Assembly: GCA_016928495.1 (NCBI GenBank)
Contig: JAFGKQ010000093.1
Location: forward strand, 1 to 5,705
Source: Candidatus Fermentibacterales bacterium
GTDB taxonomy: Bacteria > Fermentibacterota > Fermentibacteria > Fermentibacterales > JAFGKQ01
DNA: 5,705 nucleotides
Direction: 5' to 3'
Shown here: in pieces, positions 1 to 5,705 of the stretch
How the letters are laid out: each line of letters opens with the position of its first letter
Numbering within the stretch: position 1 is the first letter of the stretch
Notes under the pieces: generated by a model
Told to the model about the DNA's origin: nothing
The model's database searches: none
Seen by the model: the letters and a program-made list of their open reading frames with translations, nothing else
Program-made: the position numbers and the translations under genes

Positions 1-440
1 GACTCCGAGGAGGAGCTCCAGGAGGTGAACGGGATGCCGGTCGGCTCGGTCTGCATGGTGAGGACGAGCGAGCTCCCGGATGTCTCCGTGGTGTAGCTCA
101 TCAGCTCACCGCTGACGTCGACGATTATCCTGACTATCCCGTCCGGAGGGGCCTTGTACTGGCTCGTCCTGATGGCGCTGACGCCGCCCCTGGCGACCGT
201 GTAGTCCATGCCCGAGAAGGCATGGACAGCGTCGCTCAGGTCCAGGACTATTCTCATCGGATCGGTGAGAAGGAACTTCTCGAACACGATCGGCGCGTCC
301 GCGGTGATCGTCACCTGTGTACGGTCACCACTGGGCACAACCGAGATGTCCGTCACTCTGTACGCCGTTGCTGGCGCGCTGAGCAACAGGAGCATCATCA
401 CCAACGGCACGAGTCGTTTGAATTCTGCTACTCCACGCAT
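1..440 (-). CDS. pilQ: PilQ type IV pilus secretin, N-terminal part (signal peptide and AMIN domain), 3' end outside the window
   Basis: This is the 5' part (146 codons) of a secreted protein. A basic start and a hydrophobic run (residues 10-22) end in SAPATA before Tyr27, a plausible signal peptidase I site. Residues 27 to about 130 read as an AMIN domain: the RIVLDL strand (63-68), the VSAIRTSQY segment (87-95) and the VRIIVDV strand (103-109) are its recurrent elements. AMIN domains bind peptidoglycan and occur at the N terminus of PilQ secretins and in AmiC-type amidases; position directly after pilM-N-O-P makes PilQ much the better reading. The Ser-rich stretch starting at residue 140 looks like a linker. 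PilQ forms the outer-membrane ring through which the pilus leaves. The ATG shares its A with the TGA stop of pilP (TGATG), so translation is probably coupled; a GAGG lies 10 nt upstream. The secretin pore itself is not visible. Confidence 0.87.
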   Translation of the reverse strand, partial: MRGVAEFKRLVPLVMMLLLLSAPATAYRVTDISVVPSGDRTQVTITADAPIVFEKFLLTDPMRIVLDLSDAVHAFSGMDYTVARGGVSAIRTSQYKAPPDGIVRIIVDVSGELMSYTTETSGSSLVLTMQTEPTGIPFTSWSSSSE

Positions 441-1870
441 CACAGACCACCCTCTTCATGGAGCCTCATCGTGTAGATAGTAGGAATGATGGCGACTCCG
501 CCCCTTTCTGCGCCGTAGTCAACGGTCACTTCCTGAACCACAACTACTTCGTTCTCGGATATCTCGGCCACCTCGGTGTTGTTGGCCAGCTGGATTCCCT
601 CGTAGAGGATGAAGGCTACCCCGCCGGCGTCCTCCACCAGCGCCTGGTTGCCACCGACCGGGTCGATCGTGATTCCGACCAGCCGGAGCTCTTCCACGGT
701 GACCTCTATCAGATCGCGCCTGAGGTCTCTTCTCAGAGGCGGGAACTCGGTGAAGGGATCCGGCCTGCTGGAAACCGACTCGTAGATCCTGAAGACGCCG
801 GCCCCGGTAGTCATGACGGGCATCACGCCGCCCGTGGCCCCGGTGGTCTGCCTGGCGGCCTGTCCCGCCATGGTGCAGGCTATCATCTCCGAGTCGTAGT
901 CGGGAAGGCCGGTCCTTATGGACCCCAGTGCCGCGTGGGCGATAAGGCCGATCTCGTCGGCAGCCCAGATGATGTCACCCGTCTCCGACGGGATCAGTAT
1001 CGAGGGCTCGAACGAGGGTCTGCCGGCAACCGGGCCGGATGGGTCATCGACCGAGTAGACTCCGGACTCCGCCAGTATCAGGCCCTCGGGGTAAAGCCTG
1101 CCGTCAGGTCCGAGATCCACCCAGTTGTCCCGCGACTCCCTTCGAAGAACGGAGCCTTCCGGGTCGGTCACGTAGAAGACCCCCGATCTCCCGGCAAGGA
1201 CTCCGGAGGTCGGAGCCGTCTCGAACTGCCAGAGATCGACATCCTGATCGTACCTGCAGAGCACATCGCCATCCGCAAGGAAGAACCAGTCGGGTTCCGC
1301 CCTGAACAGCCCGGAGCAGGCCTCTGCAACTTCCTCTCCGGGGTCCCTGAGCACGAAGCCCTCGGCATCGTCGGGTATCGCCAGCCTGCCATCGGCGCCG
1401 AGCACGGCACAAGAGCCGCCCCCGATACCGATCGCGAAGGGCTCGAACCCTGTCGGGAGCTGCTGCAGCACGGCCTCCTCATCCGGAGAGAAGGAGGTCA
1501 CGCCTTCGGCAGACAGCAGCAGCACTCCGTCGCCCGTTGCCGCTATGTCCAGGTAGGGGCTGCCGCCGCCCTCCATCCTGAAGGATCTCCACTCCCTCTC
1601 GGAGGAGTCGTAGCAGAGCAGCGCCCTCTCACCGGGGAGCAGGAACCAGGTCCTGGCGCCGCTCGCGGCCGCGTCGAGCATCGCAGGGGATCCGACCGGC
1701 AACAGGACCTCGAGCCAACCCTCTACCCGGGTGCGCCCGGCTGCCGCGGTCAGATCCGGAGGCACGACGGCCGACGAGACTTCCCCCCCGCCCTGGTCGG
1801 AGCAGGATGCCGCCGCCAGGAGGGCGAGGAGCAGGAACGCCGCCGGAGCCTCGCGGGCACGTTTCTTCAT
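440..1870 (-). CDS. pilP: PilP-type pilotin-like lipoprotein with a large N-terminal beta-propeller-like domain
   Basis: This 476-residue protein is far longer than ordinary PilP (about 170-180 residues). Residues 1-23 form a lipoprotein signal (basic start, FLLLALLAAAS, lipobox AASC with Cys23); Ser24 follows, compatible with outer-membrane sorting by E. coli rules. Residues from about 45 to 360 are beta-rich with recurring blade-like units ending in an aromatic, such as LCYDSSEREWRSF (85-97), LCRYDQDVDLWQF (204-216) and LRRESRDNWVDL (242-253); this looks like a degenerate beta-propeller. Residues 369-475 match PilP: the RPDPF motif, then EVTVEELRLVGI, ALVEDAGGVAFILYEG and EVAEISENEVVVVQE, the usual order before its small beta-domain. 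PilP connects inner-membrane PilN/PilO to the PilQ secretin, and pilO and pilQ flank it here. I chose the ATG at 1870 because AGGAGG lies 9 nt upstream and a lipobox follows; the longer open frame to 2062 lies in pilO. The propeller fold is an inference, the PilP end is firm. Confidence 0.85.
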   Translation of the reverse strand: MKKRAREAPAAFLLLALLAAASCSDQGGGEVSSAVVPPDLTAAAGRTRVEGWLEVLLPVGSPAMLDAAASGARTWFLLPGERALLCYDSSEREWRSFRMEGGGSPYLDIAATGDGVLLLSAEGVTSFSPDEEAVLQQLPTGFEPFAIGIGGGSCAVLGADGRLAIPDDAEGFVLRDPGEEVAEACSGLFRAEPDWFFLADGDVLCRYDQDVDLWQFETAPTSGVLAGRSGVFYVTDPEGSVLRRESRDNWVDLGPDGRLYPEGLILAESGVYSVDDPSGPVAGRPSFEPSILIPSETGDIIWAADEIGLIAHAALGSIRTGLPDYDSEMIACTMAGQAARQTTGATGGVMPVMTTGAGVFRIYESVSSRPDPFTEFPPLRRDLRRDLIEVTVEELRLVGITIDPVGGNQALVEDAGGVAFILYEGIQLANNTEVAEISENEVVVVQEVTVDYGAERGGVAIIPTIYTMRLHEEGGL

Positions 1871-2962: not shown

Positions 2963-4726
2963 TCAGATTCCCACGTAGTCGCCAACTAGTGGTTCCAGAG
3001 ACGCCGAGTTGACCCCGACTTCCATGTCGAACTGATACCTCACGTCAGAGCCGGCGCCGGCAACGCCGGCCCCGGCCACGGTAGTCATCATGTAGGTCTG
3101 CCCGTAATCGGGAAGCGAGAACAGAGAAGTGCTGCCATCGGGCTTCAGCTCGGTAAGCCTCTGCTGGAACTCGACTATGTCGCCCCATGTCCTGGCTATG
3201 CCGGTGAGGCGAATGCTCGAGTTCCCGCTGATAATGAGGCTGGTCAGGTATATGCCCTTCTCCGCCTCTTCGGCGAGAGCCGCCTGCTCGGGATAGAGAG
3301 CGCGGCAGAGGTATTCCATCACGTAAACACTGAACCTCTGGTTGAGGGCAAGGCTCTGGATGGCTCTCTGTCTGGCGGCGACCTCTTCCGCCAGGTTGTT
3401 GACCATTTCCTGCTGCTGCAGCTGGGTCTGCATCTGGGCGATCTGCTCATCTATTACCGCAATATCGTCCTGCAGCTTCTTCTCCTTGTCCTTCACCCCC
3501 TTGTAGTGGAGGCCCAGCGCCACGACCCCGGCAACGACCAGGATCAGAGGCACGTAGCTGAGCACTCTGGAGATGGAGGGAGCCCCGGCCGCCGCGGGAG
3601 CGGCTGCCTTGGCCCTCTTCCTTCTTCCCTCGCCCGCCTCCTCCAGGACGTTGATGTCCACACGGCCCGGCTCGAAGCCCCTCAGCGCCAGTCCGGCGCT
3701 GACCGTGAGCAGGGCGCCCAGAGTGGCGCGCTCATCGTCAGGGATGACCGAGTCGTCGACGATCAGGTTCGCGAAGGGCTGGAGCGGCTCGACGGGCAGT
3801 CCGTGCTGCTCGCTGAGGATCGTCGCCAGCCCCGGAACCAGCGAGCAGCCGCCGCTTATGTACATCTTGTCGATGCGGTTGCTCTCGCCGGAGGCCTGGA
3901 AGGAGATGAATGAGCGCCTGATGCTCGTGGAGAGCTCCTCGATGACGTATCCTATCGCGGACCTGACGTCATCGTTGGACACGCCCTCGGGCAACTCGCC
4001 CCTCAGAACCTTCTCGGCAACCTCGTAGTCGAGACCCAGCGAGCGCTGGAGTGCCTCGATGAAGCGGTTGCCTCCTATGGCCAGGTCACGGTTGAAGCTG
4101 GGGAGCCCTCCGCGGACCACGACCATGTTGGTTACCTCGGCGCCTATGTTGATGATCGTGACGCAGAGGTCCTCCGGAGGCAGGTAGGCGTTCTGGAAGG
4201 CTCTCTGAAGCGCGAACTGCTCGAGCTCGATGGCCACAGGTCTCACGCCCGCGCTCTGCAGCAGCGAGCGGTGAAGATCTACGACCTCCCGTTTCGCCGC
4301 GACGAGCAGCACCTCCATCTGCCCCGGCGAGATCTCCGGGTTTACGATCTTGAAGTCCAGGCTCACCTCGTCGATGCGGAACGGAATGTGCTGCTCCGCT
4401 TCCCAGTGGATGGCCTGTCGGGCATCTTCCTCCGACATCTTCTCCATTGGTATGCGGCGCACGATGACGCTGCGGCCCGATACGGCGGAGAAGACGTTCT
4501 TCGGCTTGATTCCCGCGCTGCGGAGAACGTCACGGATGGTGGCTATCAGGTGTTCCCTGTTCACCACCTCGCCATCGACCACGGTACCCGGCAGAAGCTC
4601 CTGCACTCCGTATCGAGACAGCTTGAGCGATTTGCCGGATCTTATCAGCTCAACGGCCTTTACAGAGTGACTGCCGATGTCGAGGCCGACGGCTGACTTT
4701 CCCCCCTTGCCGAAGCTGAACATCAT
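2963..4726 (-). CDS. pilM-pilN: PilM-PilN fusion: actin-like ATPase joined to the inner-membrane PilN protein
   Basis: One 587-residue frame covers two proteins that are usually separate. Residues 1 to about 350 are PilM, an actin-like cytoplasmic ATP-binding protein: GLDIGSHSVKAVEL (14-27, phosphate 1), the KMSEEDARQAIHWEAEQHIPF stretch (96-116), INIGAEVTNMVVVRGG (192-207, phosphate 2), GGNRFIEAL (218-226) and YISGGCSLVPGL (289-300, adenosine motif). Residues 355-361 (RVDINVL) resemble the N-terminal INLLP motif of PilN that docks on PilM. A basic, Ala-rich linker (368-382), one membrane helix (about 388-407), a coiled coil (411-455) and a PilN-type periplasmic domain (460-587) follow. The protein ties the cytoplasmic PilM ring to the PilN/PilO pair. 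I chose the ATG at 4726 because GGAGG lies 10 nt upstream and PilM homologues start about here; an upstream TTG at 4759 would overrun that SD. A second ATG follows immediately. It is the first gene of the operon. The frame is uninterrupted. Confidence 0.94.
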   Translation of the reverse strand: MMFSFGKGGKSAVGLDIGSHSVKAVELIRSGKSLKLSRYGVQELLPGTVVDGEVVNREHLIATIRDVLRSAGIKPKNVFSAVSGRSVIVRRIPMEKMSEEDARQAIHWEAEQHIPFRIDEVSLDFKIVNPEISPGQMEVLLVAAKREVVDLHRSLLQSAGVRPVAIELEQFALQRAFQNAYLPPEDLCVTIINIGAEVTNMVVVRGGLPSFNRDLAIGGNRFIEALQRSLGLDYEVAEKVLRGELPEGVSNDDVRSAIGYVIEELSTSIRRSFISFQASGESNRIDKMYISGGCSLVPGLATILSEQHGLPVEPLQPFANLIVDDSVIPDDERATLGALLTVSAGLALRGFEPGRVDINVLEEAGEGRRKRAKAAAPAAAGAPSISRVLSYVPLILVVAGVVALGLHYKGVKDKEKKLQDDIAVIDEQIAQMQTQLQQQEMVNNLAEEVAARQRAIQSLALNQRFSVYVMEYLCRALYPEQAALAEEAEKGIYLTSLIISGNSSIRLTGIARTWGDIVEFQQRLTELKPDGSTSLFSLPDYGQTYMMTTVAGAGVAGAGSDVRYQFDMEVGVNSASLEPLVGDYVGI

Positions 4727-4923: not shown

Positions 4924-4940
4924 CGATTCTGGCCTATGTT
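4913..4940 (+). promoter_or_regulatory. Sigma-70-type promoter for the small plus-strand gene
   Basis: TTGACT (4913-4918) and TATGTT (4935-4940) are separated by 16 nt. The -35 matches at five of six positions, the -10 at four of six. Transcription would start near 4947, right at the SD of the gene, giving a very short leader. The -35 boxes of this promoter and of the pilus promoter lie back to back, 38 nt apart. Confidence 0.5.
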
Positions 4941-5705
4941 CCCTGCCAGGAGGAGAACTCGTGATAGCAAGAAGAAGAGAAGGCATAGTCCAGAGTATCA
5001 ATGACATAGAGGACAGGGACCAGGCTTCCGTGCGGCTGACGGTTCCCATACGTTTCGATCAGGAAGAGCTCCTTACGAGGATCGTTAGGACCGTTTCCTC
5101 CAGTCGCGACAAAGAGCACAAGAAGGAGCGCATCACCAAGGCGACGGTCATACGGGCCTACATCGACGCGCTCTCGACCATACCGCTGGACCTCGACAAC
5201 ATCAGCGACGAGAAGATCCTTCTCCAGAGGATAGTCACGGCTCTCGAGAAGCGCTGAGCCGTCCTCCCTTCCACTCGGCGGCCCCAACCTGAGCAGCACG
5301 AAGGAGCCGACCACCAGGACCGGCTCGCAGCGCTCCCTCAGGAAGTCACGCCAGCACTCCATCTGAAAGCTATCGAGCTGGCTCGAGATGCTGTTCGACG
5401 CCATGTCCATGTCGATCGCCATGTAGCACACGCCGTCGCGAGCAAGCTCCTCCGCCAGGCTGCAACCAGAGCCGGGACGCGCTGCCCAGAGGGGCTCCAG
5501 CACCCTGAAGGGGATATCCCAGGACTCGTACAGGGGCATGCCCGGCGCGTAGAAGGCTCTGTTGCCCATATCCACCAGAAGCAGCGTATCCGAGGCTGTC
5601 AGGTGCTCCCGCGCTCTCTCGTAGAACCCGTACTGCGGCTGTCTGGCCAGCAGGTACTCCTCCGGCTTTCCAGCGTAGAGAAAGGGGCGCTCGCCCGCGT
5701 ACACC
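4934..5705 (-). CDS. Probable GT-C/PMT-type membrane glycosyltransferase, C-terminal part; 5' end outside the window
   Basis: The frame is open from the right edge to a TAG at 4934-4936 (257 codons visible). The first 140 or so residues look like the soluble C-terminal domain that follows the last membrane helix in many GT39/PMT-like glycosyltransferases: EYLLARQPQYGFYERAREHL (16-35), TLLLVDMGNRAFYAPGMPLY (40-59), LAEELARDGVCYMAID (83-98), and a closing strand VLVVGSFVLLRL (129-140). Such enzymes move sugars from lipid carriers on the periplasmic side of the inner membrane; the catalytic, membrane-embedded part is not in view. The recognisable domain ends near residue 140 (about 5285). The last roughly 107 residues run exactly antisense to the small plus-strand gene and look unlike the family, so the true end may be earlier, with a lost or misread stop. 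The family assignment is by pattern, not by search. It points the same way as the pilus operon but is separated from it by a promoter. Confidence 0.5.
   Translation of the reverse strand, partial: VYAGERPFLYAGKPEEYLLARQPQYGFYERAREHLTASDTLLLVDMGNRAFYAPGMPLYESWDIPFRVLEPLWAARPGSGCSLAEELARDGVCYMAIDMDMASNSISSQLDSFQMECWRDFLRERCEPVLVVGSFVLLRLGPPSGREDGSALLESRDYPLEKDLLVADVVEVQRYGRERVDVGPYDRRLGDALLLVLFVATGGNGPNDPRKELFLIETYGNRQPHGSLVPVLYVIDTLDYAFSSSCYHEFSSWQGT
4948..4955 (+). promoter_or_regulatory. Shine-Dalgarno that fixes the start of the small plus-strand gene
   Basis: AGGAGGAG ends 5 nt before the GTG at 4961, a near-ideal ribosome site. It argues against the in-frame TTG at 4913, which is itself part of the -35 box. 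Confidence 0.7.
4961..5257 (+). CDS. Small basic protein, possible ribbon-helix-helix DNA-binding regulator
   Basis: This 98-residue protein starts at GTG 4961, 5 nt after AGGAGGAG. Residues 23-30 (ASVRLTVP) would form a beta strand, FDQEELLTRIVRTVSSSR (32-49) a helix, and ERITKATVIRAYIDAL (56-71) a second helix with the T-K-x-x-V-I-R-A pattern seen in the second helix of ribbon-helix-helix (Arc/CopG-like) proteins. A final helix (NISDEKILLQRIVTALEKR) may add to dimerisation. The linker between helices is longer and more charged than usual, so the fold is only a suggestion. Codon use (7 of 13 Ile codons are ATA, the rest ATC; AGG/AGA frequent) resembles the pilus genes and supports a native coding gene. 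It reads away from the pilus operon with back-to-back promoters, the usual layout of a regulator and its target. It lies entirely opposite the tail of the glycosyltransferase frame. No terminator is visible after its stop. Confidence 0.6.
   Translation: MIARRREGIVQSINDIEDRDQASVRLTVPIRFDQEELLTRIVRTVSSSRDKEHKKERITKATVIRAYIDALSTIPLDLDNISDEKILLQRIVTALEKR

Follow-up and report, generated by a model that had tools for sequence, protein, structure and literature searches.

Each type IV pilus machine contains many copies of PilP, which joins the inner and outer membrane complexes by binding PilQ N0 through its C-terminal domain and PilN and PilO through the arm that precedes this domain. PilP in known machines links PilQ N0 with the PilMNO complex (PMC4471445; PMC10191384). 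In Thermus, PilW is encoded between pilO and pilQ and is thought to bridge PilQ and PilMNO as a flexible connector and to make the periplasmic densities P1 and P2 (PMC13039148). Ordinary PilPs are ~165 to 230 aa long with a disordered arm, whereas the protein described here has a predicted propeller of ~270 residues between its lipid anchor and its arm.

Organization of the pilus locus

The window, the whole stretch of DNA analysed here, is an entire 5,705-base contig from a genome in 337 contigs, and among named relatives Candidatus Fermentibacter daniensis (L002) and a further Fermentibacteria bacterium (L003) are closest to it. It is organized, on the minus strand, with a pilM-pilN fusion (2963 to 4726), a small lipoprotein gene (2481 to 2951), pilO (1885 to 2445; PF04350, E 4.5e-13), the propeller-PilP gene (440 to 1870), and the start of pilQ (3 to 443), which overlaps the pilP stop; the gene order of L002 is identical. 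The contig ends within pilQ, leaving the N-terminal part with a signal peptide and an AMIN domain (PF11741, E 1.5e-11), and the complete pilQ of L002 codes for AMIN, N0, N1, and secretin domains. The PilM part of the fusion is well matched (PF11104, E 8e-67 at 14 to 351), and the PilN part at 484 to 525 is weak in the window (0.0065) and somewhat clearer in L002 (3e-4), where PilM and PilN are also in one protein. Such a fusion is not new and has been reported in most Campylobacterota pilus gene clusters (PMC11870540).

The small lipoprotein encoded between pilMN and pilO is conserved (36% identity to L002:6956-7378) and has no Pfam match; from its sequence it gives the impression of a transthyretin- or CnaB-like fold. 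Two further open frames, 4934 to 5704 on the minus strand and 4961 to 5257 on the plus strand, overlap antisense over ~300 bases and have no Pfam match, and the plus-strand frame has a good ribosome-binding site. Among motor and platform genes, the genome has five T2SSE matches and one PilC-type platform protein.

Domain architecture of the propeller-PilP

The propeller-PilP gene (open frame 443 to 1870, stop 440 to 442) codes for a predicted lipoprotein of 476 residues. A lipoprotein signal peptide with a lipid-modified Cys23, preceded by AAAS, is predicted (1802 to 1870), with a lipobox-type motif at the same site in the complete homologues. It is followed by a short disordered tail (residues 24 to 45; 1736 to 1801; pLDDT <50), a predicted seven-bladed beta-propeller (residues 46 to 316; 923 to 1735), and a linker that is mostly disordered (residues 317 to 359; 794 to 922; pLDDT mostly 25 to 55), within which the alignment shows a conserved MAGQ at 334 to 337. 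A conserved arm, FRIYESVSSRPDPF (residues 360 to 373; 752 to 793), corresponds to the RDPF motif of PilP and leads into a PilP (GspC HR-like) beta-domain (residues ~374 to 476; 443 to 751). The initial annotation placed ~310 extra residues between anchor and PilP; the extra domain stands, with the size revised to ~270 residues for the folded propeller and ~350 for the whole interval from Cys23 to the PilP domain, tail and linker included. This domain order is strongly supported, and the architecture, as modelled, is very likely right.

The C terminus as PilP

Because the window protein alone matches no Pfam family at cut-off and none in NCBIfam, relatives and profiles were needed; the PF04351 model likewise misses it in six-frame scans. 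Alignment of the C-terminal domain by hhalign to 27 PilPs from other genomes, taken together as a profile, gives E 7e-16 (probability 98.6), and in profile-profile comparison the arm aligns with the RDPF of other PilPs. The best fold matches of the predicted domain are PilP structures (Z 8.0 to 10.8), followed by the GspC HR domain (Z 8.1), and PF04351 matches 8 of the 29 relatives (best E 9e-4). PilP structures also take ranks 1 to 3 when the relatives' profile is compared with 177,635 PDB sequences, with weak E-values that make this weak support taken alone.

The gene also lies where PilP is expected in a pilMNOPQ cluster, with pilO on one side and pilQ on the other. PilPs usually have a disordered arm and no other folded domain, a feature that is not defining and from which the propeller departs; PilP membership is still allowed, because other PilP fusions exist. 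On profile-profile comparison, predicted fold, and gene position, we call the C terminus homologous to PilP, as the initial annotation had proposed, and the protein likely works as PilP. Run on the 42 genomes of the order, the profile of PilPs from other genomes matches, in 41 of them, the propeller-PilP alone (in one fragmentary genome on two contigs), so that these genomes give no indication of an additional PilP of the ordinary type. A propeller-bearing PilP accounts for the failure of the standard PilP family model to find PilP in them.

A predicted seven-bladed propeller

Residues 46 to 316 are modelled by AlphaFold2, with 29 sequences, at a pLDDT of ~90. The strands of the model fall in seven groups, with the N-terminal strand 50 to 56 placed to close the ring, and the closest fold matches are seven-bladed propellers (Z 19 to 20 over ~263 residues); the prediction for the domain is thus a closed seven-bladed beta-propeller. 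Sequence similarity between the blades is weak (profile self-comparison E 0.002), and the case for the propeller therefore rests mainly on structure prediction and not on counting repeats. The three repeats picked out in the initial annotation, which had suggested a probable beta-propeller, fall, in the model, on the hairpins that strands c and d form in blades 1, 4, and 5 (residues 85 to 97, 204 to 216, and 242 to 253). That annotation had also named two outcomes that would count against its reading, a region lacking a closed beta fold and a C terminus outside PilP; both were looked for, and the model gave a closed fold and the C terminus fell within PilP.

As to named propeller families such as PQQ/BamB or WD40, PQQ_2 matches 3 of the 29 members (best E 6e-4) and not the window protein, and the whole alignment, used as a profile against PDB sequences, gives weak, chance-like matches. 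In the alignment, Trp, Gly, and Pro are invariant at positions that recur from blade to blade, and, with strands read off the model, the Trp lie mostly in strand d, the Gly in turns, and the Pro in inter-blade loops; these residues look structural.

Conservation and distribution

A homologue is present in 41 of the 42 genomes of the order, ~37 of them with a full-length gene and the rest with genes cut at contig ends or split; the only genome without a match is 89% complete. On average, pairs of homologues are 43% identical in the propeller, 82% in the stretch ~359 to 382, which includes the arm and is the most conserved of the protein, and 76% in the PilP domain. Nei-Gojobori dN/dS ratios for close pairs are 0.08 to 0.17 for the propeller and 0.03 to 0.14 for PilP; the propeller is under purifying selection, and its faster evolution relative to the PilP domain is as expected for a less constrained accessory role. 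These data also bear on whether the gene is an artefact, in which an assembly or frame error has run two genes together or the copy has decayed. The genome is fragmented, the window being one of its short contigs, and one relative (G041) carries the gene in two frames, but a single frame with constant domain order and under purifying selection recurs in ~37 genomes, and with full-length frames so conserved we regard this explanation as already refuted, its probability being negligible.

A full-length profile search of 343 genomes outside the order, a broad and not complete sample, found no propeller-PilP, and many PilPs in the same genomes were matched by PilP profiles. Long PilP frames in other genomes, read one by one, show no propeller; their arms are low-complexity, AMIN, NTF2-like, PilO, or helical, several of these labels coming from reading and not from a family match. 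Both domains are above Pfam cut-offs in an AMIN-PilP protein (L102) and in a PilO-PilP fusion (L053:922-1875). AMIN-type domains also appear to be fused to PilP in L041 and L100, and L111 (G333:C1 845231-845527), which adjoins a helical-PilP gene, reads like AMIN plus secretin N-domains with a PilP domain replacing the secretin at the end. Two matches to the propeller region in other genomes (L109 and L110) belong to other proteins, in which no PilP domain was seen. We thus found a seven-bladed propeller on no PilP outside the relatives of Fermentibacter, and the view in the initial annotation that this layout is undescribed agrees with our search of the open-licence literature, in which no paper describing a propeller-bearing PilP was found.

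Proposed role of the propeller

We favor, with reasonable confidence, a Fermentibacter-type PilP that bridges PilMNO and PilQ and whose anchor-side seven-bladed propellers form an extra periplasmic ring or shell, a protein-binding and spacing platform and not an enzyme. By analogy with known PilPs, the C-terminal beta-domain would sit on PilQ N0 and the arm on PilN and PilO, joining the inner and outer complexes, and partner domains for such binding are encoded, PilO in the window and PilQ N0 in L002. The arm and beta-domain are the most conserved parts of the protein, and the bridging job of PilP is therefore most likely retained. The lipid anchor would keep the N terminus in a membrane, and the 43-residue linker would let the propeller hang beside the base; since the propeller precedes the arm and is on this flexible linker, it need not disturb the bridge. 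As there are many PilP copies per machine, we infer from the position of the propellers, and by analogy with Thermus PilW, that they may form a ring, shell, or docking layer in the periplasm. The machine of Fermentibacter relatives probably has an extra periplasmic part; a propeller ring with one propeller per PilP copy, on which partner proteins or the cell wall would dock at the base of the machine, would be an undescribed type IV pilus machine architecture, a tentative proposal to which we give nearly even weight. If it is true, it predicts an extra density visible to cryo-tomography.

The alternatives differ in what the propeller would do. The initial annotation had suggested that such a domain might enlarge the periplasmic cage, contact peptidoglycan, or replace another subunit. 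It could be a recruitment domain that brings one particular partner to the pilus base, be it the cell wall, a secreted substrate, or the co-encoded small lipoprotein, instead of a structural ring; propellers are commonly protein-docking domains, the operon also codes for the conserved small lipoprotein, and in other phyla PilP carries, at the same place, a fused AMIN, which is a domain associated with peptidoglycan binding. Recruitment has an appreciable probability, short of even, and is compatible with a ring. A periplasmic enzyme, for example of the lyase or lactonase type, is suggested by a seven-bladed streptogramin B lyase, which ranks with the top fold matches (Z 20.1), but many unrelated seven-bladed propellers score equally, and Asp208 is the only invariant catalytic-type residue. 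In the alignment of relatives, neither His nor Glu is invariant anywhere in the propeller, which argues for a platform that would not be enzymatic, and we consider an enzyme very unlikely.

The presence of PilY1 (PF05567) in just 1 of the 42 genomes of the order (G003), and not in that of the window, raises the idea that the propeller of this tip adhesin has been replaced by one moved into PilP. PilP is located at the base and not the tip, however, the window protein has no match to the PilY1 propeller model at E up to 1, and G003, the sole genome with PilY1, also has the propeller-PilP. PilY1 is, moreover, missing in many bacteria, and such a replacement is highly improbable.

Comparison with known systems

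The preferred reading, a bridging PilP with an added propeller platform, has a close counterpart in type IVa PilP (PF04351; PDB 2Y4X, 2LC4, and 2IVW), with which it shares a predicted lipoprotein nature, an RDPF-type arm, a C-terminal beta-domain, and the position between pilO and pilQ. Thermus PilW has the same position and a C-terminal domain like GspC HR, as in the propeller-PilP, but in its published description it is itself a flexible linker, with no propeller mentioned (PMC13039148). Another propeller-bearing protein of type IV pili is PilY1, but it is a pilus-tip and surface protein of another propeller family, whose model is unmatched in the window protein. The AMIN-PilP (L102), PilO-PilP (L053), and NTF2-like-PilP (L043) fusions also have an extra module N-terminal of PilP, although these modules differ from the Fermentibacter type and those examined are without a propeller. 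A lineage-wide propeller on a usually tiny core connector points to the anchor side of PilP as a place where pilus machines gain periplasmic parts.
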